Source: Rhodobium gokarnense
Lineage (GTDB): Bacteria; Pseudomonadota; Alphaproteobacteria; Rhizobiales; Rhodobiaceae
Assembly (NCBI RefSeq): GCF_025961475.1
Contig: NZ_JAOQNS010000013.1
Coordinates: 62,001-126,000 of the forward strand
Length of the DNA stretch: 64,000 bases
Direction: 5' to 3'
A program made the position numbers and the translations under genes. How positions within the stretch are numbered: position 1 is the first letter of the stretch; each line of letters opens with the position of its first letter. Of the stretch, positions 43,707 through 58,797 are shown one piece after another. Below the pieces are notes generated by a model that did not search any database, had not been told where the DNA came from, and worked only from the letters and a program-made list of their open reading frames with translations.

Positions 43707-44219
43707 TCACAAGCCGTACTGGTACTTCACGCGAAGGTCGAGGGCGAGCGGGCGCGAGCCGAGGATCGGCGGGCGGGGGACGACGCCGCTGGCGGCCAGC
43801 ACCGCCTGGCGGGCGTCGGCGTCGAGGGTGGCGTCGCCCGAGCTTTGCAGCATGTGGACGTTGCTGAAGGCGCCGGCCGCGTCGATGGTCAGGGCGAAGC
43901 GGGCGTTGCCGGCAAGGGCGCCCGCGGCACCGGCCGCCATGCGGCGGGCGTGGACGGCGTCGGAGACGTCTTCCAGGTAATCGTTGAGGGCGCGGCGGCG
44001 GCGGTCGGCGCGGGCGGCGCTGCTCTCGCGCGCCGGGGCCTGTTCTTCCAGGGTGATCGGCGCGGCAAGGCTCATGGCGACGTCGGGGGCGGAAAAATCG
44101 ACGACGATCATGTCGTCGCCGGCCATCTCAGTCTCGGTCGCGGGAAAGCCGCCGAGGATGAGCCAGTGGGCGGCGAGCGAGATGGCGATCGCCGCGGCGA
44201 TGCGCTCGCCGTCAGTCAC
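43707..44219 (-). CDS. TonB family energy-transducing protein
   Basis: TonB proteins transmit proton-motive force from ExbB-ExbD to outer-membrane receptors. This 170-residue protein has one N-terminal membrane helix (IAAAIAISLAAHWLIL) with the key SxxxH arrangement (SLAAHW). A charged spacer with RADRRRRALNDYLEDV follows, and the C-terminal TonB domain has ARFALTIDAAGAFSNVHMLQSSGDATLD. The spacer is short and lacks the usual long proline-rich run. It starts with GTG at 44219, overlapping the exbD stop (GTGA). No TonB-dependent receptor gene is in the window, so the served receptor must lie elsewhere. Confidence 0.88.
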   Translation of the reverse strand: MTDGERIAAAIAISLAAHWLILGGFPATETEMAGDDMIVVDFSAPDVAMSLAAPITLEEQAPARESSAARADRRRRALNDYLEDVSDAVHARRMAAGAAGALAGNARFALTIDAAGAFSNVHMLQSSGDATLDADARQAVLAASGVVPRPPILGSRPLALDLRVKYQYGL

Positions 44220-44653
44220 GGCAGTGTCTCCGGCGGGGTGCCGGCCGCGGCGTGGCGCGCCGGCTTGGTGGCGATGACGAGGCGGTCGCCGCCATTCTCG
44301 CGGATGGTGCTGACGGCGGCGAGGAACCGGCCGACGGAGGCGTCGCGGTCGGCCTTCAGGACGATCTGCATGCCGCCGGGCACTTCCCTTGCGTCCTTCA
44401 CCTTGAAGCCGAGCTCGCGCAAATCGATCGGCTCGGTGTCGGCCAGGAGGCTGCCGTCGGCACCGAGCACGATCTCCAGCGTGCGGCCGGCATAGGTGCG
44501 GGCAATCTCCGACTTCGGCAGGTTCATGTCGACGCCATGGGTGGTGAAGGCGGCGGCGATGACGAAGAAGATCAGGAGGATGAAGACCACGTCGAGGATC
44601 GGCGTGACGTCCGGCAGATTGCCGTCGCGCGGCTTTTGCCGCAGCGGGATCAT
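44216..44653 (-). CDS. exbD: Biopolymer transport protein ExbD
   Basis: The 145-residue protein has one membrane helix (DVVFILLIFFVIAAAF) whose opening contains PILDVVF, including the proton-channel aspartate of ExbD/TolR. The periplasmic domain (about residues 45-130) has VGRFLAAVSTIRENGG, typical of the family. It works with ExbB to energise TonB. Its ATG overlaps the exbB stop, and its own stop overlaps the tonB start, so the three are co-translated in fixed order. Confidence 0.93.
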   Translation of the reverse strand: MIPLRQKPRDGNLPDVTPILDVVFILLIFFVIAAAFTTHGVDMNLPKSEIARTYAGRTLEIVLGADGSLLADTEPIDLRELGFKVKDAREVPGGMQIVLKADRDASVGRFLAAVSTIRENGGDRLVIATKPARHAAAGTPPETLP

Positions 44654-45261
44654 ATCGCCCTCGCCGCAGGCGCCGCCTCGGTCATCAGCACGCGGTTGGA
44701 GAGCCGCGACAGGGCGAAGGCCACCTGCTCCTCGCGGCGCAGGAACCCGCTCTGGGCGATCACCGCGGGAATGGCGATGACGAGGCCAGCAGCGGTCGTC
44801 AGCAGGGCCTGCCAGATGCCGTCGGCAAGCAGCGTCATGTCGATGGCGCCGCTTGCCGAGGCGAGGCGCGAGAAGGTCTGGATCATGCCGATGACGGTGC
44901 CGAGAAGGCCGAGCAGCGGCGCCACCCGGGCGGCCATGCCGAGGAAGCCGATGCGGCGGTCGAGGCCGCGCACGATTTCCTCGATGGCGATCGTCGCCCG
45001 GCCTTCCCGGACGCTCGCCGCGCCGCGACCGAGGAGGGCTTCGACCAGCGGGCGCAGTGGCGGGCTCTTTTCCGCGGCAGCGACAAGCGTCTCGTCCGTG
45101 TTCTCGCCGCGGGCGGCCGCTTCCAGGCGCCGTTCCATGTCGGCATCGAACAGCGGCAGGGTGGTGAACACCAGGAGCCGGTCGAGGATGATCGCGACGA
45201 CGAGGACGGAAAGCGCGATCAGCGGCCACATGACGAGGCCGCCGTCTTCAATGAACCACAT
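44650..45261 (-). CDS. exbB: ExbB/TolQ/MotA family proton-channel protein
   Basis: The 203-residue protein has three membrane helices in the ExbB order: one N-terminal (about residues 8-28), then two after a cytosolic loop (about 105-130 with APLLGLLGTVIGMIQTF, and 150-175 with LLTTAAGLVIAIPAVIA). The TVxGM and TTAAGL motifs are the family signature. It forms the proton-driven motor with ExbD. It overlaps the end of the CobW-like gene by 14 bases and exbD by 4, placing the energising complex in one transcript with the upstream metal genes. Confidence 0.93.
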   Translation of the reverse strand: MWFIEDGGLVMWPLIALSVLVVAIILDRLLVFTTLPLFDADMERRLEAAARGENTDETLVAAAEKSPPLRPLVEALLGRGAASVREGRATIAIEEIVRGLDRRIGFLGMAARVAPLLGLLGTVIGMIQTFSRLASASGAIDMTLLADGIWQALLTTAAGLVIAIPAVIAQSGFLRREEQVAFALSRLSNRVLMTEAAPAARAI

Positions 45262-47302
45262 GGGGGGACTCCAGGTCTTGTGACTCCAGTTCGGGGGCCT
45301 CTTCTGTCAGGGGAGCCCAATGGGCGCTGAGGTCCGGGCTGTCGACGCCCCTGCCGATGACGATCAGGAAGGGTGGCTCGGTGACGGGGCGCTCCGGCGC
45401 CACGAACTCGGCATGGCCGGGGACGAACTGCAGGATCTGCGGCTCGTCGACGCCCTTCAGCTTGACCACGCCCTTCACCCGGTCGACGGCGTCCGGGCAG
45501 TCGACGAGGAGGCGTGAGAGGACGTCGATGTCGACCTCGTCGGGCAGGATAAGCTTGAGGTACGAAAAGCCTTCGCCGAGATGGGAGGCGTGGTCGTGGG
45601 CGTGGTCGTGGGCGTGGGCGTGATGATGGCCGCGCCCATGTTCCTGGCAGTGCCCGCCGCCGTGGCCGTGGTCGTGATGGCCGGCGCAGCACTGGCCGTG
45701 GTCGTCGCCGTGGTGACCGTCGCATTCGCCATGCTCGTGGCCGTGGCCCCCGCCGCCGCAATCGCCGTGGCCGTGGCCCTCACCATGCGCGTGGCCGCAG
45801 CAGCAGGAGACCTCGGCCTCTTCCTCTTCCGCGAGCAGTTGCGCGAAGCCTGCGCCCAGGAGCTTCGGGTTGACCCGGCCCTGGCGCGCCTCGATGACGC
45901 TGGAGCCGGCGTTGCGGCGCGCAAGGTCGGCGTGGATGGCGACGAGCGTTTCGTCATCGACGAGGTCGCATTTGTTGAGGACGAGGGTGTCGGCGGCGGC
46001 GATCTGGCCGCTAGCGATCTCCGATGTGTCGATGGTCTCGAAATAGCGCGCGGCATCGACGACCGTGACGACGGCCTCCAGGCGGACGAGGTCGTCGAGG
46101 TCGCGCAGCTCCTCCACCATGTTGAGCGGATTGGCGAGGCCGGTGGTCTCAAGGACGATCATGTCGGGCGCGAACCGCTCCTTCAGGGTGCGGATCGCCG
46201 GGCCGAGCGCGCCCGCAAGCGTGCAGCAGACGCAGCCGGCATCGACGGCCATCACCGACTCGTCGCCTTCCAGCAGCATGGCGTCGACGCCGGTCTCGCC
46301 GAGTTCGTTCTGGATCACGGTGACGAGCTCGTTGCGGCCGACATGGTACTCGATGAACTGGTTGAGGAACGAGGTCTTGCCGGAACCGAGGAAGCCGGAC
46401 AGGACGATGAGGCGCGGCCGGTCACCGTAACTCTCGGGGCGCTCCGTCGCCGGCACCAGCGGGATCGGGTCGCGGCGGTAGCGGTCGAGACCTGCATCCG
46501 CCCGGGTGTGGGCGCCGAGGGGTTCCAGGCAGCGGCCGAGGGCGGACGCCTCGCCCCAGACCAGGCGGTCGGTGTCGCGGCAGGCGACGGCGGCAGCGAC
46601 CGGGGTGAGGGTTCCGTCCGCGCGGCAAAGGGTGATCGAAGACGGGGCCTCATAGGCGACGATCCGCGACGGCGCGGCGCCGGAGGAGACGGTGAGGCCG
46701 GCGGCGAGCACCGCGGCGAGGTCGCGGGCGATCTCGAACGCCGGAAGGTCCTCGTCGGCAGCGCCGGGTTCGACGACGAAGCCGCCGCCGGGCGCAGCAA
46801 TGCCGGCCTCCGACAGCACGCGCCGGCGACGCTCGGCGGTCAGCGCCAGGCCGATGGCGGCGCCGTCGGCGGAGACGGCAAGGCGGAGCGATGCGATGGA
46901 GAAGGCGGCGATCAGGTCCGGATGGGCGGGAAAGTCGCGCAGCCGCTCCGGCGTGCCGGCGTCGGACGCGAGGATGGCGGCGGAAATCGCGAAGCTGTCG
47001 AGGAGCGGCTCGTCCGCATCGGGGAAATAGCAAAGGGTGTAGTCGACGGTGGCGGGATCGCCGTCAGTGGCGACGGTCGCGGGGATGAGGCCGTAGACGC
47101 CGGGACGCCTGTCGATGCGGCAGGTGAAGGCGCGCGGGTCGCTGTCGCATTGGGACAGGCCAAGCCAGCCTTCGGCGCGGCGGAAGCGGGCGTCCATGCA
47201 GGCGGCGGTCATCCAGCTTCGCGGCAGGCCGGCAAGGGCGTCTTTGGAAAGGCCCTTCGGGCCGGCGGGGCCGAACAGGCGGGGAAACAGGGAAGCAGTC
47301 AT
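45248..47302 (-). CDS. CobW/ZNG1-type GTPase with His/Cys-rich domain and unknown N-terminal domain
   Basis: This 684-residue protein is about twice the usual CobW length. Residues 1 to about 290 form a domain I do not recognise. The CobW GTPase core follows: Walker A GFLGSGKT (about 302), the metal motif GCVCC (about 355), LETTGLANP, and NKCDLVDD. Residues about 498-572 are an extreme metal-binding stretch with about 25 histidines and 8 cysteines. The C-terminal CobW domain (KGVVKLKG, then ILQFVPGHAEF) ends the protein. CobW proteins load zinc, cobalt or other metals into client enzymes. The natural client here is the neighbouring MBL-fold hydrolase or another operon product; that is inference. 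Confidence 0.9.
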   Translation of the reverse strand: MTASLFPRLFGPAGPKGLSKDALAGLPRSWMTAACMDARFRRAEGWLGLSQCDSDPRAFTCRIDRRPGVYGLIPATVATDGDPATVDYTLCYFPDADEPLLDSFAISAAILASDAGTPERLRDFPAHPDLIAAFSIASLRLAVSADGAAIGLALTAERRRRVLSEAGIAAPGGGFVVEPGAADEDLPAFEIARDLAAVLAAGLTVSSGAAPSRIVAYEAPSSITLCRADGTLTPVAAAVACRDTDRLVWGEASALGRCLEPLGAHTRADAGLDRYRRDPIPLVPATERPESYGDRPRLIVLSGFLGSGKTSFLNQFIEYHVGRNELVTVIQNELGETGVDAMLLEGDESVMAVDAGCVCCTLAGALGPAIRTLKERFAPDMIVLETTGLANPLNMVEELRDLDDLVRLEAVVTVVDAARYFETIDTSEIASGQIAAADTLVLNKCDLVDDETLVAIHADLARRNAGSSVIEARQGRVNPKLLGAGFAQLLAEEEEAEVSCCCGHAHGEGHGHGDCGGGGHGHEHGECDGHHGDDHGQCCAGHHDHGHGGGHCQEHGRGHHHAHAHDHAHDHASHLGEGFSYLKLILPDEVDIDVLSRLLVDCPDAVDRVKGVVKLKGVDEPQILQFVPGHAEFVAPERPVTEPPFLIVIGRGVDSPDLSAHWAPLTEEAPELESQDLESPHVVH

Positions 47303-47332
47303 TTTCTTCTTGGCTCCCGGGAGGTGGGAGGT

Positions 47333-47360
47333 GGGGCCGCGCCGAAAAAGGCGCGACCCC
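47333..47360 (-). promoter_or_regulatory. Hairpin between MBL and CobW genes
   Basis: GGGGCCGCGCC-GAAAAA-GGCGCGACCCC forms an 11-bp stem with one mismatch and a 6-base loop in the 77-base gap between the two genes. No T run follows in either direction, so it is more likely an mRNA-stability or processing hairpin than a terminator. Confidence 0.45.
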
Positions 47361-47379
47361 GGTTGGCGGAGGAAGGCGA

Positions 47380-48540
47380 TCAGAAAGTGATGGTGTCGCC
47401 GTTGCCGAGATAGTCCGGCGAGGAGGTCCGGAAGCGGGCCGTGCCCTGGACCACCGGATAACCGGCCTCGATGAACTTCTTGGCCGTCAGGTGGCCGGTG
47501 CAGTGGTTGCAGCCGACGCGCTCGAAGTCCCACTTGCCGAGGGAGATGACGAGATCGTCGTATTTCGGATCCCAGTCCTCGAAGGGCGAGATGTGCAGGC
47601 CGCCATAGACGCCGTAGAAGCGGTCATTGTCGTATTTCAGCTTCTGGTGCGCCGTGGAGGTCATCTGCAGGATGCCCTGGTGGTTGCAGCCGGAGATGAG
47701 GACGAGGCCCTTGTCCTTGATGTTGAAGGCCAGCGACACCTCGCCGTAGACCCGGGTGATGATCGGCACGTTGAACTTGATCGCCATCATGCCCGGACGG
47801 ATCTGGGTCAGTTCCTTGTCGATGACCTTGAGGTCGCCCTCATAGCCGCTGTCCTTGATGTATTGCATCCCCTCCTCGTAGAAGCCGTCATGGGCGTAGG
47901 TGGGGATCTTGTTGTTGTATTTCATGACCACCGGGAAGCCCCAGAAATGGTCGAAATGCTCGTGGCTGAGGATCAGCGCCTCGATCTCGCCCGCCGCCAG
48001 CATCTGGTCGATGGCCTCGCGCTTGAAGCTCTGGTCCATCCAGTCGTAGGACCAGCCGGCGTCGAGCAGGTATTTGTGTTTCGAGCCGTCGAGATCCTCG
48101 ACCTCGATGAGGCAGGAGTAGCCGCCCGGATTGTCCGGGTGCAGCGACAGCTTCTGCTGGGTCGCCCAGGCTTCCTCCAGGTCGCCGGGGATCATCTTCT
48201 TGATGGAGTCGATGCCGTCCTTGTAGGAGCCTTGCGCAACGCCCTTGCCGTTGCCGAAGGGCGGCCAGTTGATGGAGTACTGGTCGACCAGGAGGCCACC
48301 GGCGGCGTGGATGTCGCCGACGAGGTGGGCGTTGTTGAACCAGCTCGTCTCGGAGATCGAGGTCACCTTGACGCTGCGGCAGGCTCCGAAGTCCGCCTGC
48401 TCGCGGTTCACCTTGGACATCCGGCTGTAGGCCAGCGGCGAGTAGGAATAGGCACCCATTCCAAGGAGTGTTCCGCCGATCGCACCGGTGGCGGCGCCTT
48501 TGACGAAATCGCGCCGGGTGGGGGTTTTCTGTTCGGACAT
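47380..48540 (-). CDS. Tat-exported metallo-beta-lactamase-fold protein
   Basis: The 386-residue protein begins with a twin-arginine signal (PTRRDFVKGAATGAIGGTL), so it is exported folded, probably with its metals already bound. The metallo-beta-lactamase fold shows SHEHFDHFWG (HxHxDH, about residues 190-198), SGCNHQG and GGLHISPFEDW. A later CNHCTGHL supplies further Cys/His ligands. The pattern is close to the pterin-phosphate-synthase (MJ0301-like) branch of MBL proteins; the substrate is unknown. It lies between a polytopic membrane protein and a CobW metallochaperone on one strand. GGAGAACC precedes the ATG. Confidence 0.87.
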   Translation of the reverse strand: MSEQKTPTRRDFVKGAATGAIGGTLLGMGAYSYSPLAYSRMSKVNREQADFGACRSVKVTSISETSWFNNAHLVGDIHAAGGLLVDQYSINWPPFGNGKGVAQGSYKDGIDSIKKMIPGDLEEAWATQQKLSLHPDNPGGYSCLIEVEDLDGSKHKYLLDAGWSYDWMDQSFKREAIDQMLAAGEIEALILSHEHFDHFWGFPVVMKYNNKIPTYAHDGFYEEGMQYIKDSGYEGDLKVIDKELTQIRPGMMAIKFNVPIITRVYGEVSLAFNIKDKGLVLISGCNHQGILQMTSTAHQKLKYDNDRFYGVYGGLHISPFEDWDPKYDDLVISLGKWDFERVGCNHCTGHLTAKKFIEAGYPVVQGTARFRTSSPDYLGNGDTITF

Positions 48541-48560
48541 AACGGTTCTCCTTCCTCGCC

Positions 48561-49970
48561 CTATTTGACGATCGTCACGGTCTCGCCGATCCACGGCAGG
48601 ACGGTAATGACGGCGAAGTAGACGGCGGCACCGGCGGCTGCGCCTGCGAGCAGGCCCTTGCCGAGGCTCGGCGTCCAGCGGACGTCGCTTGCGACCACTT
48701 CATTGCGGGTTTCTTCAAGTTCTTCGGCGGTCTTCGGCACGGCCTTCCAGCCCGGCCAGCCGTCCATGAACCACATGTTGATCAGGAAGATGTTGATCAG
48801 CCAGATCGTCGGGATCATCGGGAACTGCTGGGGATGCGAGAAGCCCTTCTGGGTGCCGAGGAAGAGGTGGGCGGTCTTGTAGTAGATGATGTAGACGGCC
48901 GCACCGATCGCCAGGCTGATCAGGGTGCGCAGGAGCACGTTGACCGGACGGGAGAACTTGGTCGGCCAGTTGCCGCCGTAGAACGACAGGTAGAGGACGC
49001 CGACGAGCCAGAAGATCGCGGTCTCGCCCACATGCAGCCAGCGCCAGTCGGGAGCCATCTCACGACGCGTGCCGCGGATCGCCTCGCCCCAGACCAGGTC
49101 CTGCGCGTAGTACAGGAAGAAGCACATGCAAAGGGCGACGAGGATGATGCCGAAGAACGACGAGGTGCGACGCAGCCAGTCGGTCTGGATCAGGTTGAAC
49201 GGATAGCGCTGCCAGATGCTCTCATAGACCCAGACAACGACCGTGCAGCACATGATCCAGGCGATGTGGAAGTTGCCGGAAACGGTGTTGGCGAAGCCTT
49301 CCCAGTACGGCGGCGTGATCGCGGTGTACTGCTGCCACGGGTAGAACAGGATCGCCATGTGCGAATGCATGGTCAAAAGGTAGACGATCATCGACAGGAA
49401 GAAGGTGACGATGACGATGGTGATGCCGCGGGTCGGCTGGGTCAGCTTCTGCCAGGGCGCGTTTTCGCACGCGACGACCCAGCTCGGCGACAGCCAGGAG
49501 GCGATCGCTGCGAACATCATGACCGCTTCGGCGGCGTATTCGATCGAGTAGAAGTCGGTCAGCCCCATGGCCATCAGGCGGTCGGGGTTGAAGTAGGCGA
49601 TGCCGAAATTGCCAAGGATCTCGATGAAGAAGCCCTTGATCAGCAGAAGCATCGCGGCGACGCTGACCGCGGTCAGAACGACGCCCTTCAGCAGCGGATG
49701 GGCGCTGTTGAGCCAGGTGCGCTTGAACGGCCAGAAATCGAAGATGTAGGCCAGCCAGATGAACAGGATCAGCAGCCAGCGGCAGACCATGTAGCCCACA
49801 TAGGGGGTGTACATGCGCATGATGCCGCGGGGATCCTGGAAGATCCACCAGGTGGCGTAGAAGAACCCAGCAATCAGCAGGGTGTTGACGATGGCCGGCC
49901 AGGGCCCGCTCCACCGTTTGACGAGTTTGCGGCTTTCAAGGTAACTTACCGCTTGATTGTCCACTTGCAT
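48561..49970 (-). CDS. Polytopic membrane protein of unknown function
   Basis: The 469-residue protein has about 10-12 membrane segments rich in Trp, Phe and Tyr. I do not recognise a named family. Several histidines lie within or beside membrane segments (TMHSHMAILFYPW, NFHIAWIMCC, WRWLHVGETAIFW), which could bind metal, heme or a quinone. The C-terminal part has a charged loop (AEELEETRNEVVASDVRW) and a final helix. GGAGGG lies eight bases before the ATG. It precedes the Tat-exported MBL protein by 20 bases, so the two may form a membrane transporter or oxidoreductase with a periplasmic hydrolase. Confidence 0.8.
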   Translation of the reverse strand: MQVDNQAVSYLESRKLVKRWSGPWPAIVNTLLIAGFFYATWWIFQDPRGIMRMYTPYVGYMVCRWLLILFIWLAYIFDFWPFKRTWLNSAHPLLKGVVLTAVSVAAMLLLIKGFFIEILGNFGIAYFNPDRLMAMGLTDFYSIEYAAEAVMMFAAIASWLSPSWVVACENAPWQKLTQPTRGITIVIVTFFLSMIVYLLTMHSHMAILFYPWQQYTAITPPYWEGFANTVSGNFHIAWIMCCTVVVWVYESIWQRYPFNLIQTDWLRRTSSFFGIILVALCMCFFLYYAQDLVWGEAIRGTRREMAPDWRWLHVGETAIFWLVGVLYLSFYGGNWPTKFSRPVNVLLRTLISLAIGAAVYIIYYKTAHLFLGTQKGFSHPQQFPMIPTIWLINIFLINMWFMDGWPGWKAVPKTAEELEETRNEVVASDVRWTPSLGKGLLAGAAAGAAVYFAVITVLPWIGETVTIVK

Positions 49971-50052
49971 GGATCAACCCTCCTTCGATGTGGACAGTCA
50001 GGTGTGGGGGGACGACTTGCCGGTACGGCCCCCGCACCCTCTCTCTCCGGTT

Positions 50053-50259
50053 TTAAAAACTCTCCCTTTCCTCCTCGCCGAGCAGCGTCTCAAGCTGCGC
50101 GGGGTCGATCGTTGCCGGGTCGAGGCCCGCGGCCATCGCCGCCCGGAACAGGCGGTCGCGCGCCGCATCGACGGGCGCGGCGATCCGCATCGGCTCCGGC
50201 GCGGCTGCGTGACCGGCGTTGAGGCGATTGAGGCCGAACAGGAATTCACGGCGGTTCAT
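50053..50259 (-). CDS. Small protein (68 aa) of the GntR-MBL-TonB operon
   Basis: The protein starts MNRREFLFGLNRLNA, then has an alanine-rich middle and a helical acidic end (PATIDPAQLETLLGEEERE). The RREF motif resembles a twin-arginine start but no clear hydrophobic core follows, so export is doubtful. Its ATG overlaps the stop of the gntR gene (ATGA) and it precedes the polytopic membrane gene by 82 bases. I do not recognise it; it could be a small subunit or chaperone for the neighbouring membrane protein. Confidence 0.65.
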   Translation of the reverse strand: MNRREFLFGLNRLNAGHAAAPEPMRIAAPVDAARDRLFRAAMAAGLDPATIDPAQLETLLGEEERESF

Positions 50260-50939
50260 TGGTCCTGGCTCCTTGCCGGGACGGCGTCCTTCGCCGGAAA
50301 GCCGAGCAGGTCCGCAAAGGCTTCCAGGCAATGGGCGGCGAGCACGCGGGCGCGCTCTGCGTCATGGCTCTGGACGGCCTGCAGGAGCCCGACATGTAGC
50401 GGAAAGAACGCATCGATATGGGGCTGGTCGAGCTCGCCGAGGGTGGTCGGCAACTGGTCGCTGGCGGCGATCTCGCGGATCAGCAGGACGAAATAGGGAT
50501 TGCCGGCGAGGTCGGCGAGAATGCCGGAGAAGGACAGGAAGATCTGCGCCGTCAGGGCGCCGTCGCGGTTGACGAGGGCGCGGCCGAGCCGGGTCGTCAG
50601 GGTCTGCAGGGCCTGGCCCTTTTCCGGCGTGCAGCGGATGGCGGCGCGGGCGGCCAGTTGCGGCGCGACGAGGCCGAGAGCCTCCAGCGCGTCGCCCGGC
50701 GCGCCCTTCCTGCGCAGGGAATTCCAGGTGATCGCGGAGGCATCGCGCAGGTAGCAGCCGCTGCGGCCGCGAATCTCGATGCGTCCGGCGGCGGCGAGCG
50801 CGATCAGGGTCTCGCGGACGGTGTTGCGGCTGACCGAGAGCTGCTCGGCGAGGCTGCGCTCGCTCGGCAACCTGTCGCCCGCCTTCAGGTGCAGGGAGTC
50901 GATGACGGTGAGCAGGCTGTCGAGGCAGGGATGTGCCAT
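50256..50939 (-). CDS. GntR family regulator with FCD domain
   Basis: The 227-residue protein has an N-terminal GntR winged helix (LKAGDRLPSERSLAEQLSVS, about residues 17-36, then RNTVRETLIALAAAGRIEIR). An FCD ligand domain (about 85-215) carries the expected metal or ligand residues, including HIDAFFPLHVGLLQAV. I start it at ATG 50939 and not at the upstream ATG 50978, because an exact FCD-type operator (TGGTCCAACCA) lies between the two, 15 bases before 50939. It is the first gene of the operon that runs to tonB. Autoregulation is likely, and the effector is probably a small carboxylate. Confidence 0.9.
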   Translation of the reverse strand: MAHPCLDSLLTVIDSLHLKAGDRLPSERSLAEQLSVSRNTVRETLIALAAAGRIEIRGRSGCYLRDASAITWNSLRRKGAPGDALEALGLVAPQLAARAAIRCTPEKGQALQTLTTRLGRALVNRDGALTAQIFLSFSGILADLAGNPYFVLLIREIAASDQLPTTLGELDQPHIDAFFPLHVGLLQAVQSHDAERARVLAAHCLEAFADLLGFPAKDAVPARSQDQ

Positions 50940-51307: not shown

Positions 51308-52597
51308 TCAGGCCGGCGTCCTCTGCTGGGTGAGATCGCCGACGATGCGCGGCAGGTGCGGCCAGAGGCTTTCGGCGAGGCCCAGATAGGGCTGGATGTT
51401 GTCCGGCGAGAACGCGTTCGGCGTGGTGGAGCAGAAGATGACGACGTCGCGCAGCACGTTCTCGTGGAAGAACGGCACCGCGAAATAGGAGCGGATGCCG
51501 TGCGGGATGAACAGCGCCCAGTCGATCGGCTTGATGCTCTTGGAGGTGTCCTCGACGATCAGGTGATCGAGGTTGTAGAGGACGATGTTCTCCGCAATCG
51601 AGCCCGGATAGGGGTGGGTGTTGTTCTTCTGGATGTCCTTGAACGCGGCGCCGACGCCGGTCACGATCACGTTGCCCTTGGAAATGAAGATCTGGGACAG
51701 GAGCGCGGCATCGGCACGGCCGGTCTCCGGCTGGTGGTCGAGGATGACGGTCAGGAGGTCGGCAAGGGACTTCGCCGACTTCAGGCGGCGCTGGCCGTCC
51801 TTGCACAGCACCGGCCGGGCGGCGGGCTCTGCGACGGCTGCCTGGTGGCGCGGCGTCAGCGAGAACCACAGCAGATGGCGGCCGTCCCGGTCATAGGCGC
51901 GGACGCGCGCCGTGCAGGCGAGCGTCTCGCCGGTCGCGGTGCGGATTTCCAGAAGCCCATTCCAGGACAGGTCGAACAGCAGCCGCTCGTAGATGTCGCG
52001 CAGATAGGCGTCCGGGTTGCCGGCCAGCAGATCGGCGACGCCGGTCTGGCGCTCGTCCGGATCGATGCCGAGGCGGATGCGGGCCGCCTCGTTGGCGGCG
52101 ACCACCTGGCGGCTGCCGACATGGACCATGAACACCGGATTGGAAAACAGCTCCACGTGCTCGGCGAGCCCTGCCTGCGAGCCGCGCTTCAGGATGGCGT
52201 TGGCGAGCGAGGTGCAGTCGGCGAGGAGCCCGATATAGCAGAAGGTCATCTCCGGATCGGGCGAGCCGAGGATGTAGAGCCAGCGCATGACGCCGTCGCG
52301 GCCGCGGGCGCGGATCACCTCCGACACCGGCTGGCGCTGGTGCAGCCGCTCCTGGAAACGGGCGAACACGGAGCGGTCGTCCTCGGCCAGCATCTCTTCG
52401 GCCCCGGCGGCGTCCTGCAGGAGCTGGGCGACGCCCTCCTCCAGCCCCGGAATGACGTGCTCGTTGAGGAAGTTGATCTCGTTCTTGACGAGATCGGCGC
52501 GCCAGATCACCGCCGGCAGGGTCGCCCCGGTGTCCGCCGCAAAGCTCTGCAGCAGGAAGTCGAAGGCGGAATCGTTGATATGCGGGGTCTGGTTCAT
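51308..52597 (-). CDS. PAS/GAF sensor protein without output domain
   Basis: This 429-residue cytosolic protein looks like two PAS-type domains (about residues 15-135 and 145-260) followed by a GAF-like domain (about 285-420). The second PAS includes FMVHVGSRQVVAANEAARIRLG and ETLACTARVRAYDRDGRHLLWF. The GAF-like part contains IRSYFAVPFFHENVLRDVVIF. No kinase, GGDEF, phosphatase or DNA-binding region follows, so it would have to act through a partner. It ends about 370 bases before gntR on the same strand, which makes a role in controlling that operon possible. The domain calls rest on pattern and are moderately sure. Confidence 0.7.
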   Translation of the reverse strand: MNQTPHINDSAFDFLLQSFAADTGATLPAVIWRADLVKNEINFLNEHVIPGLEEGVAQLLQDAAGAEEMLAEDDRSVFARFQERLHQRQPVSEVIRARGRDGVMRWLYILGSPDPEMTFCYIGLLADCTSLANAILKRGSQAGLAEHVELFSNPVFMVHVGSRQVVAANEAARIRLGIDPDERQTGVADLLAGNPDAYLRDIYERLLFDLSWNGLLEIRTATGETLACTARVRAYDRDGRHLLWFSLTPRHQAAVAEPAARPVLCKDGQRRLKSAKSLADLLTVILDHQPETGRADAALLSQIFISKGNVIVTGVGAAFKDIQKNNTHPYPGSIAENIVLYNLDHLIVEDTSKSIKPIDWALFIPHGIRSYFAVPFFHENVLRDVVIFCSTTPNAFSPDNIQPYLGLAESLWPHLPRIVGDLTQQRTPA

Positions 52598-53151: not shown

Positions 53152-53517
53152 TCACAGATAGGCGGCGACGATGTCCTTGAAGGTCTTCAGGTTGATGTGG
53201 ACCTTGTCGAGGCAGTCGTCGGCCTCGAATTCGTCGAGCTGGTCGAAGACCGGGTCCTGGATATCCGACGAAATCACGACGATCTTGCCGGCAAAGCCCT
53301 TGCCGCGGAGCTTCGGCACGGTCTGCCGGTAGTCGGTGTAGGGCGGCAGGCGGCTGTCGAGGAAAATCACCGCCACATTGTCCTTCTGCATCTCGTCGAG
53401 AGCATGCTGCAAGGACATGGCGTGCCGGACGTCGACGTCGCTCAGGGTCATTGAAAAACACTCGATCAGCTTGTGCTGATGCTCATTGTCGTCGACGAAG
53501 AGAATGGTCGGCCGCAT
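53152..53517 (-). CDS. Single-domain response regulator
   Basis: The 121-residue protein is a receiver domain with no output. It has the acidic pair VDDN (about residues 9-10), the phospho-acceptor aspartate in IFLDSRL (about 56), the serine in VISSD and the lysine in LDKVH. It probably passes phosphate in the chemosensory relay of the large kinase encoded upstream on the same strand. It is separated from the other receiver gene by 66 bases. I take ATG 53517 because it gives the normal receiver start MRPTILFVDDN. Confidence 0.88.
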   Translation of the reverse strand: MRPTILFVDDNEHQHKLIECFSMTLSDVDVRHAMSLQHALDEMQKDNVAVIFLDSRLPPYTDYRQTVPKLRGKGFAGKIVVISSDIQDPVFDQLDEFEADDCLDKVHINLKTFKDIVAAYL

Positions 53518-53583
53518 GAACACGCACCTCCGCATCTGGAAAAAGGTTTGCATTGCCCGGACCGGCGGCCCGGCCGTCGAAAC

Positions 53584-54036
53584 TCAACTGCACTGCCGGA
53601 CGAGGATGCGCCCGCCGTCCGTCTCGCTCACACAGGCGAGATCGTTCACTACTTCACAGATACGCTCCAGGGCCGCCCCGTTGAGCGGCTTGGTGACAAA
53701 GAAATCGGCGCCCGCGCGCATGGCGTCGAGGCGGTCCTTGGGGTCCTCCGAACCGGTGCAGATGCCGACGATCAGTCCCTCGCAGTTCTTGTTCCGGCGC
53801 AGCGCCCGCACCGCGTCGATGCCGCTCGAGACCGTCAGGTTGAGGTCGACGACCACCAGGTCGCTGTTGCCGAGGGCCCCTTCGGTCTCCAGCACCTTCT
53901 TTTCGAACTCGTCGAACTCGGCATAGGTCGACAGGGTCACGTTGATCTTCTCGCGCCGCAGACAGAGCCGGGTGATCATGAATTCGTCGGGCGAGTCGTC
54001 GATGAAATGCAGATCGGTGACATTGGTCTGGGTCAT
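53584..54036 (-). CDS. Single-domain response regulator coupled to the CheB/CheR kinase
   Basis: The 150-residue receiver has FIDDSPDEF at the start, the phospho-acceptor region VVVDLNLTVSSG, the threonine in ICTGSEDP and the lysine in FFVTKPL. This set is typical of the receivers found beside bacteriophytochrome or CheBR-type kinases. Its ATG overlaps the stop of the large kinase gene (ATGA), so it is the direct partner of that kinase. A C-terminal extension of about 15 residues contains CVSETDGGRILVRQC. Confidence 0.9.
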   Translation of the reverse strand: MTQTNVTDLHFIDDSPDEFMITRLCLRREKINVTLSTYAEFDEFEKKVLETEGALGNSDLVVVDLNLTVSSGIDAVRALRRNKNCEGLIVGICTGSEDPKDRLDAMRAGADFFVTKPLNGAALERICEVVNDLACVSETDGGRILVRQCS

Positions 54037-57000
54037 GGTTTCAGTTCCGCCTTGGGCAAGGAAATCACGAAACAGGCGCCGCCGAGCGCCGTGCTGTCCT
54101 CGACGATGATGGTGCCGCCATACTGGTGGACGATACGCTGGCAGATCGACAGGCCGAGGCCGGTCCCCTCGACCTCCTCGCGGCGCTGCAGGCGCCTGAA
54201 GACGACGAAGACCTCTTCGCGGGCGTCTTCCGGAATGCCGGGTCCGTTGTCCTCGACCCGGATGGTGACGGTGGACGCGCCGACCTCGGCGGAAATCCGG
54301 ATTTCGGGCGCCGGCGTGCCGTTGAACTTGATGGCGTTGGCGATCAGGTTCTGGAAAAGCTGGGTGAAATGCACGCGCGCGCCGCTCACCACCGGCAGGT
54401 CCCCGGCGACCACCTTGGCGCCCGATTCGGCAATGCCCAGTTCCAGGCCTTCCTGGATGTCGGAGACCACCTGATTGAGATCGACGTCGATGTGCTCGAC
54501 CTTCTGGTCGATGCGGGAATAGGCCAGAAGGCTGGAAATGATGTCGCTGAGACGCCGTGTGTTGGAACCGATCCGCGCGATCAGTTCCGTGCGTTCGCCG
54601 GCATCGCCCTGGACCTCCGGTTCCTGCAGCAGGTCGCACATCGCCGCGATCAGGCGCACCGGCTCCTTCATGTCGTGGGAGCAGACATAGGAGAACCGGT
54701 TCAGTTCCTCGTTCGATTCGGAAAGCGCGGCCAGCGCCGCGCGCAGGTCCGCCTCGCGCTCGCGCACCTCGGTCACGTCGAGGAAGATGCCGAACACGGA
54801 GGTCGTGTTCCGGCTCGGGTCGACATCGACCTCGCCGACCGATTTGACGCGCCGGACCTCGCCGGACGGCCGCACGATTCGGGCTTCGTATTCGAAGGAC
54901 TGCTTGTCGTTGCGCGCCTTGTCGACGAGCGCGCGCACATGGTCGACGTCGTCCGGGTGGTAGAAGGCCATTGCGGCCTCCAATGTCGGCGAAAAGGTCT
55001 CAGGCGTGACGTCGTGGACGGCATAGATCTGTTCCGACCAGAACAGGCTGTCGTCGAGGAGGTCGATGCGCCAGAAGCCGAGCCCCGACATGCGCGCCGC
55101 CTGCTGCAGGAGACCGTTGCGCTCTCGCAGTTCCAGGAGGGTCCTGTTGCGCTCGGTGATGTCGTCGATCGTGCCGGTCATGCGCACGGCCTTGCCGTCC
55201 GCGTCCCGTGAGGCCTCGCCGCGGGCTTCCACCCAGAGGTAGGTGCCGTCGGCCCGGCGCAGGCGATAGACCTCCTCGTACGGCACCCCGTCTTCCAGGT
55301 GCTGGCGCATCGCCTCCATGATCCTGTCGGCGTCTTCCGGATGGAGCCGGGTGGTGAAGGCGTCCAGATCGCCGGTGAAGTCCTTGTCGTCGATGCCGAG
55401 AAGATTCTTGAAGCGGTCGGACCACCAGACCGTGCTGGTCTCCAGGTTGTGGTCCCAAAGGCCGATGCCGGACGCATCGGTCGCCAGCGCCAGGCGTTCC
55501 TCGGACCTTTGCACCGCCTTCAGCGCCTCCTGCTCGGAGGTGACGTCCTCTTTCAGGCCGTAGATGAGGGGCTCACCGGTCTCGGAATCGCGGGACCTGA
55601 CATGGGTGACCCGGACCCAGCGCGCCTCGCCATTGGCGAATGTCATCCGGCCGATATTTTCCTCAAGGGAATGGCCGCCTTCCAGGAACCTGCGATCCAA
55701 TGCAGCCGCCGCCTCGGCGTCGGCCTCGCCCAGCAAGCCGTAATAGTCCTCGCCCTCGACGTCGCGGTCCGCCGCGCCGACCATGGCGCACGCCGCCGGG
55801 TTGGCCTTGACGATCTTGCCGTTGCGGTCGCGCACGAAGATCGCCTGGGGGAAATTGTCGAAAATGAGCTGCAGCTCGTTGCGGGTCCGCCGCAATTCGT
55901 TGGTGTTGTCCGCGATCAGGATGATGGCGCCGCTGACCTGGCCGCTCTCCTGGGTGTTCGGAACGATGGAGATGATTGCGTCGATGTCGTCGCCGCGGAT
56001 CTCCGTTTCGATCCGCCGGCGTTCGGTCATCGCCTGATTGGCGAGATCGACGATGTCGGGAAACCCCTTTTGCCGCTTCAAGAGGCTGAGATGGGGGAGC
56101 TGTTCGTCGGTATTGATCTGGAACAGCTCTTCGGACGCATTGCTGACATGGACGATGTTGAGGCCGCGGTCGGCGACGATCAGCGGCGAGCCGATATTGA
56201 GGAGAATGCCGTTGAGGCTCTGGTTGAGCAGGCGCAACTCGTTGGCGCTGACCTGAAGCTCCTCGTTGACGGTCGACAGTTCCTCATTGGTCGACTGCAG
56301 CTCCTCGTTCGAGGTTTCCAGCTCTTCGTTGGTCGACTGCAGTTCCTCGTTGCTCGACTGCAGTTCCTCATTGAGCGCCTGGAGCTCCTCGTTCGAGGTC
56401 TCAAGTTCCTCTGCGGTCTGCTGGAGATTGGCCTGGGCGATCGCCAGTTCGCGCCGCAATTCGTCGTTCTGCTGCTGCACATCGACCGTGTCGTCCGGTG
56501 TCTCGCCATCGATCTGGAGGCCTTTCTCCTCCCATTTGTGGATCACCGCCAGGGCGAGCACTTCGTCGTCCGGGCCGCTCTCCACCGGATGGACGGTGAC
56601 CCGGATGCGTCCGTTCGGATTGGCCTCATCGATATGGGCAATGCCGCTGCGCGTTTCCCGGGTCCTCAGGACCACGGGCACAGCCGTGCGGACATCCTGG
56701 CCGAACGGCTCCTTGACCAGGCTGGTGATGCCGAGCGACAGCGAGCCGCTCTGGACGTTGATGTAGGGATTGACGTTGCCGTAGGCCTTGCGAAGCTGCA
56801 TGTCCGGCCCGATCAGGAAGCCGTCCGGCCCCAGCGCCTTGACCAGCGAGTCGAACCGGGCGTCCGCAGCGGCCAGGTCCCGGGCGTCCACGGTATCGCG
56901 CTTGGCCTGGCGCGGCCGACGGTAATAGGCCGGCTGGCCGTCGAGCTCCTTGAACAGCGACTTGTTCTTGCCGGGGCGCTGGAAAAAGATGTGCCGCTCG

Positions 57001-58412
57001 TGTTCCGCCGGCCGGAACAGGCTTTCATTCGCCGCCACCGTTTCCGACTTGCCGAGGAACAGCGCTCCGTGGGGGACGAGCGCATAGTGGAACCGGGACA
57101 GGACCTGGCCCTGCAGCGAGGACTGGAAGTAGATCAGGAGGTTGCGGCAGGAGATCAGGTCGATGTTCAGGAACGGCGGGTCCTGAATGATGTTGTGGGT
57201 CGAGAACACGACCCGTTCGCGCAGCGCCTTCTTGACGATGTAGCCGGTCGGCACCTTGTCGAAATATTCCTGGATGAAATCCCGCGGCACCTCGTCGAGG
57301 GCCGTTTCGGCATAGAATCCGCGCCGGCCGATCTCGATCGCCTCGTTGTCGATGTCCGAGGCGAAGATCTGGACCTTGCGGTTGGAGAAGGCTTCCACGC
57401 CGCCCATGTGGTCGGCGAAGACCATGGCAATGGAATAGACCTCCTCGCCCGTTGCCGCTCCCGGCACCCAGATGCGCACGGTTCCGTCGGGCGGCTTGCT
57501 CTCCAGGATCTTGCCGACCACCGACCTGAGGGCGTCGAACTCGCTCGGGTCGCGGAAGAACGCCGTCACAGAGATCAGGAAATCCTTGAACAGTGCATCG
57601 ATTTCCTTGGCCGAGGAGCGGGCGATGGCGACGTAGTCGTCGATTTCCTTGACGCCGAGGGCGGCCATCCGCCGCTCGATGCGCCGCTGCAGCGTCGCCG
57701 GCTTGTAATGGCGGAAATTGACCCGGCGCTGGTTATGCACGAGGTGGATGAGCTCCGAGACGCCATCCAGGTGCACCGGCGAGGATTTCAGGGCCTCCAG
57801 GTCGGTGCGCCCCTCCAGGATGGTGGCGAACTGGGTCGCGATCTTTTCCGGCGGCATGACGAGATCGACGCAGCCGGATTCGACCGCGGAGACCGGCATG
57901 CCGGTGTACTTCGCCGACAATTCGTCCTGGGCGATGGTGATGCCGCCGGCCGCCCGGATGTCGCGCATGCCGCGCGCGCCGTCCGATCCGGTGCCGGAAA
58001 AGATGATCCCGATCGCCCGGTCTTCCTTCTCCACGGCAAGCGAATGGAACAGCCGGTCGACGGAGGGTTTCGGGGTGCCGGCATCGCGGCTCGGCAGCAC
58101 CAGGCGGAGCACATCGCCGTCGATCTCCACGTCCCGGTCCTTGGGCGTGATGTAGACCGTGTTCGGCTCCGGAATCGTGCCGTCCTCGATGCTGACCACC
58201 TCAAGGTCGGTTTCGCGACCGATGATCTCCGGCAGCATGGAGCGGTGGTGCGGCGACAGGTGCTGGGCGACGATATAGGTGGCGTTGAGCTGGCCGGGAA
58301 GGTTGCGCACGAAGGCGCGGAGCGCCTCCAGCCCCCCGGCCGACGCGCCAATTCCCACCCAGAACAGGGTTTGGCGGGCCTCATTTTCGTTTAAGGTCGC
58401 AGTACTATCCAC
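54033..58412 (-). CDS. CheB-CheR-PAS-histidine kinase fusion protein
   Basis: This 1459-residue soluble protein joins five functions. The CheB methylesterase domain (about residues 15-205) has GASAGGLEAL, VAQHLSPHHRS and GTGSDGARG. The CheR methyltransferase (about 215-480) has VTAFFRDPSEF and GAATGEEVYSIAM. A long coiled coil (about 635-730) is built of repeated EELQSTNEEL-type heptads. Several PAS domains follow (about 735-1200, two with HPEDADRI-like PAC motifs). A histidine kinase completes it: phospho-acceptor H in CSHDMKEPVRL (about 1245), N box ANAIKFNG, then DNGPGIPED and GTGLGLSIC. No receptor gene is nearby. The start is GTG 58412 or TTG 58415; neither has a clear ribosome site. Confidence 0.93.
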   Translation of the reverse strand: MDSTATLNENEARQTLFWVGIGASAGGLEALRAFVRNLPGQLNATYIVAQHLSPHHRSMLPEIIGRETDLEVVSIEDGTIPEPNTVYITPKDRDVEIDGDVLRLVLPSRDAGTPKPSVDRLFHSLAVEKEDRAIGIIFSGTGSDGARGMRDIRAAGGITIAQDELSAKYTGMPVSAVESGCVDLVMPPEKIATQFATILEGRTDLEALKSSPVHLDGVSELIHLVHNQRRVNFRHYKPATLQRRIERRMAALGVKEIDDYVAIARSSAKEIDALFKDFLISVTAFFRDPSEFDALRSVVGKILESKPPDGTVRIWVPGAATGEEVYSIAMVFADHMGGVEAFSNRKVQIFASDIDNEAIEIGRRGFYAETALDEVPRDFIQEYFDKVPTGYIVKKALRERVVFSTHNIIQDPPFLNIDLISCRNLLIYFQSSLQGQVLSRFHYALVPHGALFLGKSETVAANESLFRPAEHERHIFFQRPGKNKSLFKELDGQPAYYRRPRQAKRDTVDARDLAAADARFDSLVKALGPDGFLIGPDMQLRKAYGNVNPYINVQSGSLSLGITSLVKEPFGQDVRTAVPVVLRTRETRSGIAHIDEANPNGRIRVTVHPVESGPDDEVLALAVIHKWEEKGLQIDGETPDDTVDVQQQNDELRRELAIAQANLQQTAEELETSNEELQALNEELQSSNEELQSTNEELETSNEELQSTNEELSTVNEELQVSANELRLLNQSLNGILLNIGSPLIVADRGLNIVHVSNASEELFQINTDEQLPHLSLLKRQKGFPDIVDLANQAMTERRRIETEIRGDDIDAIISIVPNTQESGQVSGAIILIADNTNELRRTRNELQLIFDNFPQAIFVRDRNGKIVKANPAACAMVGAADRDVEGEDYYGLLGEADAEAAAALDRRFLEGGHSLEENIGRMTFANGEARWVRVTHVRSRDSETGEPLIYGLKEDVTSEQEALKAVQRSEERLALATDASGIGLWDHNLETSTVWWSDRFKNLLGIDDKDFTGDLDAFTTRLHPEDADRIMEAMRQHLEDGVPYEEVYRLRRADGTYLWVEARGEASRDADGKAVRMTGTIDDITERNRTLLELRERNGLLQQAARMSGLGFWRIDLLDDSLFWSEQIYAVHDVTPETFSPTLEAAMAFYHPDDVDHVRALVDKARNDKQSFEYEARIVRPSGEVRRVKSVGEVDVDPSRNTTSVFGIFLDVTEVREREADLRAALAALSESNEELNRFSYVCSHDMKEPVRLIAAMCDLLQEPEVQGDAGERTELIARIGSNTRRLSDIISSLLAYSRIDQKVEHIDVDLNQVVSDIQEGLELGIAESGAKVVAGDLPVVSGARVHFTQLFQNLIANAIKFNGTPAPEIRISAEVGASTVTIRVEDNGPGIPEDAREEVFVVFRRLQRREEVEGTGLGLSICQRIVHQYGGTIIVEDSTALGGACFVISLPKAELKP

Positions 58413-58797
58413 CAATGATCGCCGTAGTGAATTCGGGAGCGAATCGATCGTAACGATTTTTTAATGTTTAACAAGTATCGGCCGACACATGCCTTGACTC
58501 TAATCAGTTTTTTACTTTGGCTGCAGTGCAAAACTAGCGGTATACTTTGGATAGCCAAAATCGCGCATTACGGGTCGCGTTTTTTTGACAAACAGGATTT
58601 TCATCCGACTGAAATGCGTGGGCCGGGACTGACGGCTCCCCATCGGCACCCCGGCGCAATCGGTGATCGTCACGCCGCGATGACGACCACATCGCGCGCC
58701 TGATAAGGACTGGTCGCAGGCCGTTCCAGCCCGCCGTGATCGGCAGGCGTATCGGTCCCGCAGTCGCCGGACCGTCCGGTGAAACGGGTAAAGCCGC
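58413..58797. other. Intergenic region before the CheB/CheR kinase gene
   Basis: The first 150 bases are A+T-rich and should hold the kinase promoter on the minus strand, which I cannot place. On the plus strand TTGGCT (58517-58522) and TATACT (58541-58546) with 18 bases between look like a promoter, followed by TTTGG-N4-CCAAA (58546-58559), but no credible gene lies downstream. The rest is ordinary GC-rich spacer up to the RIME-like repeats. Confidence 0.35.

Follow-up and report, generated by a model that had tools for sequence, protein, structure and literature searches.

The minus-strand locus and its recurrence

We analysed a 64,000-nucleotide stretch of the genome of Rhodobium gokarnense (contig NZ_JAOQNS010000013.1, positions 62,001 to 126,000), hereafter the window, in which eight genes lie head to tail on the minus strand and encode, in reading order, a GntR/FCD regulator, a small protein, a polytopic membrane protein (here called MEM), a metallo-β-lactamase (MBL) fold protein with a twin-arginine translocation (Tat) signal, a CobW-type GTPase and an ExbB-ExbD-TonB trio (Table 1). 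An earlier description of this DNA, made from the sequence without database searches (the original prediction), had proposed that the GTPase supplies metal to the MBL protein before its export and that the trio serves import of the same metal or of a substrate. All eight genes proved to be open frames in the order and on the strand that had been claimed, and the overlaps were found as well: 4 nt between gntR and the small gene, 14 nt between the CobW gene and exbB, and 4 nt each between exbB and exbD and between exbD and tonB. The MEM and MBL genes are separated by 20 nt, and the MBL and CobW genes by 77 nt, if ATG starts are used. When the window proteins were run against Pfam and NCBIfam models at their curated cut-offs, domains above the Pfam cut-off were found for GntR and FCD, Lactamase_B, cobW and CobW_C, MotA_ExbB, ExbD and TonB_2, which upholds the labels given to these six proteins.

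To find relatives of the locus, an alignment of four MEM proteins was scanned against 84,980 species genomes. This returned 166 relatives, and the best 80 of them define the loci analysed here. The MEM and MBL genes are adjacent and on one strand in all 80, with a gap of -4 to 74 nt, and the CobW gene, or its start at a contig end, lies downstream of the pair in 77; in the remaining three the contig ends 0, 1 and 154 nt behind the MBL gene. The distance between MBL and CobW genes is mostly below 300 nt and reaches 3.1 kb at most. Because CobW lies behind the pair in 77 of the 80 loci, which belong to several phyla, and the other three are cut by contig ends, the gene combination is not the product of chance. 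Recurrence of the MEM/MBL pair with CobW had been named as a check in the original prediction, and the answer is strongly positive. Pairwise distances over 64 loci are correlated between MEM and MBL (r 0.84), MEM and CobW (r 0.86) and MBL and CobW (r 0.81). None of the titles and abstract openings listed by searches of the open-licence full-text literature points to a described system with this gene set, although a subscription paper could exist; that no named system was known for the combination had been stated before, and as judged by Pfam, NCBIfam, PDB and this literature the set appears to be new.

MEM is rare and its distribution patchy: strong matches to it were present in 1 of 385 genomes of the class (the window's own), 4 of 199 genomes of the order and 2 of 398 genomes of the phylum, these samples overlapping in part. 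Weak matches in G165, G521 and G903 (19-23 bits over short stretches) were dismissed as chance. A profile of the front domain of the CobW protein (N-domain, described below) matched 2 of the 398 phylum genomes and 4 of the 199 order genomes, the very genomes in which MEM is matched strongly, in searches that scored at most 5 or 11 candidates per genome and could therefore miss weak matches; the MBL subfamily occurs in the same 4 order genomes. Plasmids and viral contigs were also searched, and no MEM relative was found in them. Within the genus, G442 carries MEM at 99%, and a third genome, G396, gave no match to MEM, MBL or N-domain. The hosts of the best 80 include many Thermodesulfobacteriota, Campylobacterota, Bacteroidota and Deferribacterota, one Planctomycetota metagenome-assembled genome (MAG) and a scattering of Alpha- and Betaproteobacteria. 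Seven of the 80 record titles do not name a MAG; these include Rhodobium orientis, Malonomonas rubra, Rhodoplanes serenus, Pseudovibrio exalbescens and Desulfogranum mediterraneum. Desulfovibrio-type and alphaproteobacterial sequences are intermixed in the MEM tree, with good branch support, and two distant MEM copies (L026 and L039) come from a single Pseudodesulfovibrio. Given this intermixing and the two distant copies in one genome, the plain reading of the sequences is that the set has spread by horizontal transfer. The genome of L028 holds the main version a second time, complete with exbB-exbD-tonB (L118:3038-13864). In the Breoghania MAG (L017) stops occur in the MEM and MBL frames while the similarity continues, owing to assembly error or decay.

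Proteins of the core and a version lacking the GTPase

Conservation was read from alignments of 80 of 81 MEM proteins (the window's included; L017 was left out for its in-frame stops), 78 of 81 MBL proteins (L017 out for stops, L027 and L046 for contig ends), 66 of 78 CobW proteins (L017 included; the 12 of 77 loci left out comprise ten truncated at contig ends plus L079 and L091, short from start choice) and 63 of 66 N-domains (L017, L055 and L090 out for odd lengths). The predicted model of MEM (predicted local distance difference test, pLDDT, 84.8; predicted template-modelling score, pTM, 0.88) has 11 helices that we read as membrane-spanning. Lysine plus arginine amount to 17.7 on the N-terminal side against 9.5 on the other (loop averages), and the N-terminus is therefore predicted to be inside; the outer loop 295-308 runs counter to this charge trend, with 3.9. 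Five histidines (His202, His204, His313, His368 and His379), all at outer helix ends or in an outer loop, are invariant in the 80 proteins, and His202, His204, His313 and His379 are kept even in three diverged MEMs of 29-31% identity. Since these invariant residues lie on the predicted outer face and all but His368 persist in the diverged versions, the model makes a periplasm-facing metal or substrate site in MEM plausible. Pfam searches with the 80 members gave weak matches only, the commonest to Ureide_permease (18 of 80, best E 2e-4), NCBIfam gave a single weak match in one member, and PDB sequences gave none; a Foldseek search of PDB returned nothing below E 0.001, the best match being alternative complex III (E 5.7e-3, template-modelling score 0.17). 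The original prediction had left this polytopic protein unrecognised, and rightly so, as no Pfam or NCBIfam model or PDB fold fits it; to judge by its sequence, MEM is a member of an undescribed membrane-protein family.

The MBL protein matches PF00753 above cut-off and carries the site HEHFDH. Its Tat signal, which like the HxHxDH site had been noted in the original prediction, is recognised by TIGR01409 at 19.3 bits against a cut-off of 16.7, with the Pfam TAT_signal model remaining below its own (14.2 against 22.7). TIGR01409 is matched by 55 of the 78 aligned members at E 0.01, the twin arginines are invariant in all 78, and we regard the protein as a predicted Tat substrate. The ligand-type residues H193, H195, D197, H198, H287 and H316 are likewise invariant in 78 of 78 and are kept in the second version described below. 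Profile matches to 7dck (2.4e-15) and 2p4z (1.3e-11) span HxHxDH, GC(C/S)H, GG(L/F)H and HC(T/S)G motifs, a pattern shared with the 7dck, 2p4z and TM1679 group of MBL proteins. In contrast to that group, the present protein has a Tat signal and about 140 residues before the matched part, and it is paired with MEM in every one of the 80 loci.

In the third protein of the core, the GTPase matches PF02492 (E 1.3e-40) with a Walker A motif, and CxCC (GCVCC) is invariant in all 66 aligned proteins, so that the CobW motifs seen earlier in the window protein stand. Neither the CobW equivalog (95.1 against a cut-off of 332.1) nor the ZigA equivalog (86.3 against 600) was reached. The histidine-rich stretch that had been described with them does exist in the window protein but is local: defined as 9 His in 40 residues, it occurs in 10 of 66 CobW proteins, all from the window lineage or other Alphaproteobacteria, and as a defining feature it was rejected. 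About 290 residues at the front of the protein, overlooked in the original prediction, constitute a separate domain, the N-domain, whose predicted fold is confident (pLDDT 90.6, pTM 0.88). In searches with 63 members, no Pfam match fell below E 0.026 and NCBIfam gave none at E 0.01, and comparison with PDB folds gave none at E 0.001 (best 0.09); residues 66-126 bear a weak resemblance to inorganic pyrophosphatases (PDB 3sw5, E 0.0076; Pfam E 0.17, below cut-off). The 38 genomes behind the loci contain 43 occurrences of the N-domain, three of them as separate proteins of 320-341 aa that lack a GTPase, and the fusion of N-domain and GTPase with an intact CxCC is kept in all 66 full-length proteins. 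With the COG0523/G3E GTPases (CobW, ZigA, ZNG1) this protein shares the GTPase domain, the GxxGxGK loop, CxCC and CobW_C, and a position beside a metalloprotein gene; it differs from them in its front domain, which belongs to no known family and also occurs alone. The available parts of PMC2770081 and PMC9659907 do not mention such a front domain for COG0523 GTPases.

A diverged second version of the set was found in three genomes. Here the order is MBL-MEM-N-domain, and the MBL and MEM proteins are 36-37% and 29-31% identical to those of the main version. By eye, all three stand-alone N-domains end in a Cys/His-rich C-terminal tail. In one of these loci (L115) a tripartite ATP-independent periplasmic (TRAP) transporter, its small subunit recognised by eye, precedes the set on the same strand, and another lies near genes resembling short-chain dehydrogenase/reductase (SDR; by eye) and enoyl-CoA hydratase. 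The existence of a version without the GTPase shows the N-domain to belong to the core, with the GTPase as an attached part.

Motor, regulators and neighbouring genes

The exbB-exbD-tonB trio is complete in 21 of the 80 loci (20 of the 55 with 3 kb room) and was never found partial; the motor is an optional add-on. In 18 of the 21 it starts less than 300 nt after CobW ends, the exceptions being L079 (0.8 kb behind), L043 (2 kb behind, separated by a chemoreceptor gene) and L038 (upstream of gntR). Its distribution on the MEM tree requires 10 changes, although contigs that are cut short inflate this number. TolQ is the nearest match for ExbB, and both ExbB (54.6 against 206.2) and ExbD (42.3 against 123.45) fall below every ExbB, ExbD, TolQ and TolR equivalog cut-off, for which reason we call the motor Exb/Tol-type and assign it to neither; the TonB C-terminal model is exceeded (29.7 against 27.1). 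The TonB proteins of the trios are 168-179 aa long (one, broken, has 133), with 3-9 prolines in the first 95 residues. The three-gene order with overlaps and the Pfam families MotA_ExbB, ExbD and TonB_2 are those of ExbB-ExbD-TonB and TolQ-TolR-TolA, from which the present trio is set apart by its scores below the equivalog cut-offs, its short TonB and the fact that no receptor was found nearby. A receptor within about 7 kb of an ExbD was observed in L109, L111 and L114 (Parasutterella- and Mailhella/Bilophila-type genomes); in L109 genes resembling an energy-coupling factor (ECF) transporter, by eye, lie between the two.

Upstream of MEM, gntR is found on the same strand in 47 of the 71 loci with 1.5 kb room, and in 50 of 80 overall. 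Sigma-54-like sites upstream of MEM were detected in 11 of 29 loci without gntR as compared with 0 of 50 with it (79 of the 80 loci scanned; shuffled expectation about 0.01 per sequence). Since gntR is present in some loci and such sites occur only in gntR-free ones, one core sits under exchangeable regulators. Relatives of the PAS/GAF protein gene lie upstream in 43 of the 65 loci with 3 kb room, 31 of them on the same strand; this gene, absent from the earlier list of eight, is an additional member of the conserved neighbourhood, and its product is a likely sensor partner. Small proteins with an RR motif were found upstream of MEM in 36 of 80 loci by tblastn with three query groups (10+24+2), which may not be one family; a stricter regular-expression count gave 24 of 79, and the tblastn sum is used here.

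Additional genes can intervene between MBL and CobW. Small secreted-looking proteins with a PEM-type motif were found by tblastn in 14 of 80 loci, those inspected lying at this position; two of them (L034:12733-13416 and L058:12692-13087, which have relatives) have no Pfam family. DsrC-like proteins occur in 2 of 80, L048 and L052, as tandem copies at the same position, and a DsrC link as a general feature was rejected. Neighbouring genes chosen by a codon-bias gene caller (95 downstream and 78 upstream) were run against Pfam and carried mainly PAS, kinase, sigma-54, chemoreceptor and receiver domains; among the first 25 of 152 and of 127 neighbour families of the main version, no recurrent catabolic enzyme pathway was seen. 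In the window itself, the segment 39502-42770 downstream of the locus, on the minus strand, encodes a MauG/di-heme-peroxidase-like cytochrome (weak NCBIfam matches) and, behind it, a protein without NCBIfam match in which FG-GAP-like repeats were recognised by eye. Upstream of the PAS/GAF gene, 53152-58415 on the minus strand holds a receiver-domain protein (53152-53553), a second receiver recognised by eye and a long open reading frame that by eye encodes a hybrid histidine kinase. In Rhodobium orientis an MmeI-like restriction-modification gene lies between tonB and an ornithine-cyclodeaminase-like gene (L015:16257-19868); the window has no MmeI-like gene, and there tonB and the ornithine-cyclodeaminase-like gene are 4 nt apart.

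Table 1. Features of the locus in the window and related features in other loci (locus handle before the colon)
Feature	Position	Strand	Matches and remarks
PAS/GAF protein gene	51308..52597	-	PAS_3 and GAF_2, both below Pfam cut-off; upstream of gntR
GntR/FCD regulator	50256..50939	-	PF00392, PF07729
Small protein, 68 aa	50053..50259	-	N-terminal NRREF motif; by eye without clear hydrophobic stretch; no Pfam or NCBIfam family
MEM, membrane protein, 469 aa	48561..49970	-	11 predicted transmembrane helices; no Pfam or NCBIfam match
Tat-signal MBL-fold protein, 386 aa	47380..48540	-	HEHFDH and later His/Cys motifs; Pfam, TIGR01409
N-domain-CobW fusion, 684 aa	45248..47302	-	GTPase 299-469, CobW_C 589-662; Pfam
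N-domain, residues 1-292 of the CobW protein	46427..47302	-	No reliable Pfam or NCBIfam family, no fold match
His/Cys-rich stretch of the CobW protein, about residues 500-580	45563..45805	-	Absent in most relatives
ExbB/TolQ-type proton-channel protein	44650..45261	-	PF01618; best NCBIfam model tolQ, below cut-off
ExbD/TolR-type protein	44216..44653	-	PF02472; below equivalog cut-offs
Short TonB-family protein, 170 aa	43707..44219	-	PF13103, TIGR01352; without proline-rich linker
DsrC-domain proteins	L048:14980-15669, L052:5912-6571, L052:8684-9361		First two by Pfam, third by tblastn; inside or beside locus
Diverged second version	L115:8648-12070, L116:5685-9192, L117:9090-12548		MBL-MEM-stand-alone N-domain, no GTPase

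A candidate periplasm-facing metalloprotein complex

These observations provide the basis for a model in which the locus encodes a so far undescribed metalloprotein complex that faces the periplasm and has a metal-insertion factor of its own, a reading to which we give a probability of about 0.5. The MBL protein would fold and bind metal in the cytoplasm and leave via the Tat pathway. The N-domain-CobW protein would be the metal-insertion factor of the MBL protein or of the complex, the N-domain recognising the client and the GTPase delivering the metal. Once outside, the MBL protein would act at the periplasmic face of MEM, the two forming one enzymatic or transport complex. Expression would be induced by a ligand or stress, through GntR/FCD in the window lineage and through sigma-54 or other regulators elsewhere, and roughly one locus in four would have gained an Exb/Tol-type proton motor. 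Loading of the MBL protein by CobW before export, the central step of the original prediction, is compatible with the invariant Tat arginines and CxCC and may be considered strengthened. The three linked genes, for the secreted MBL protein, which resembles metal-dependent hydrolases, for MEM and for the GTPase with its front domain, move together between widely differing bacteria, most of which avoid oxygen; they therefore probably specify a real, still unnamed molecular machine.

Several points weigh against this model. No CobW match was found in 18-19 kb around the second-version loci; with no GTPase in the locus, metal insertion by CobW cannot be the whole story, and, as far as the sequences tell, GTP-driven insertion is either not essential to the core or done in trans. 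The second version lacks His368 of MEM, a residue that never varies in the main one. MEM could also be a transporter whose histidines are structural, and the correlated trees are also expected under joint transfer.

The import function envisaged for the trio, in which CobW metallates the MBL protein and ExbB-ExbD-TonB powers an outer-membrane receptor importing the same metal or a substrate, seems to us unlikely. It would fit a trio that is all-or-none and usually stands directly behind CobW, and 19 of the 20 trio genomes examined do contain receptor plugs at other places. In G926 and G932 the searches detected no second ExbD close to the receptor, which could thus be served by the trio; in G925 a receptor and the trio share a contig, about 28 kb apart. 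However, tblastn with eight receptors found no TonB-dependent receptor in the 21 trio loci or the window (as a control, every one of the eight receptor stretches was found again with one or more of the other receptors), and one trio MAG has no receptor plug at all. Of 11 trio genomes examined, 7 have a receptor and a further ExbD no more than about 7 kb apart; likewise the window's genome has three receptors, none on the window's contig and two about 5 kb or less from another ExbD pair. Moreover, the TonB of the trio is short and not proline-rich, and the trio is missing from 35 of the 55 loci with 3 kb room. The set and its gene order were correctly described, and it is the role in TonB-dependent import that is weakened, by presence in 21 of 80 loci and by the lack of a receptor beside it. 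A different division of labour, with the N-domain as a cytoplasmic pathway enzyme or scaffold, the CobW part as an unrelated or general metal supply, and the MBL protein and MEM obtaining metal independently of CobW, strikes us as rather unlikely: the separate N-domain protein of the second version, the confident independent fold and the faint pyrophosphatase-like signal would agree with it, whereas the fusion to a GTPase with intact CxCC in every full-length protein, encoded behind the MBL gene, weighs against it.

MEM might instead import or export the product of a periplasmic MBL hydrolase, the locus then being a hydrolyse-and-take-up system for some organic compound. Small organic molecules are the usual ligands of FCD-type regulators, and the TRAP transporter and the SDR-like and enoyl-CoA-hydratase-like genes beside second-version loci, together with the weak Ureide_permease matches, point in this direction; since MEM has no transporter-fold match and no catabolic family recurs among the first 25 families on each side of the main version, we consider this rather unlikely. 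That the system handles a sulfur compound and is tied to dissimilatory sulfur metabolism appears very unlikely. Many host lineages belong to groups known for sulfate reduction, and tandem DsrC-like proteins stand inside two loci, but they are confined to these two, and many other hosts belong to groups that are not known as sulfate reducers.

A more novel arrangement may be offered tentatively, as a possibility that we consider less likely than not. MEM would belong to a new family of integral-membrane metalloproteins and bear a His202-x-His204/His313/His379 site on its periplasmic side, working with the Tat-exported MBL and N-domain proteins in an undescribed anaerobic enzyme or transport complex. 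The N-domain would be a dedicated assembly factor, equipped with either a fused GTPase or its own Cys/His tail, and the motor, where present, would act on the complex and not on a receptor.

The recurring unit, made up of two proteins for which no family or solved fold is known together with a secreted metalloprotein and a metal-handling GTPase, is seen in Pseudomonadota, Thermodesulfobacteriota, Campylobacterota, Bacteroidota, Deferribacterota and others. If the proposed complex is real, it would be an undescribed piece of the physiology of anaerobes, and the natural pair of versions with and without the GTPase would make delivery by COG0523 proteins, what they deliver and to whom, directly testable.

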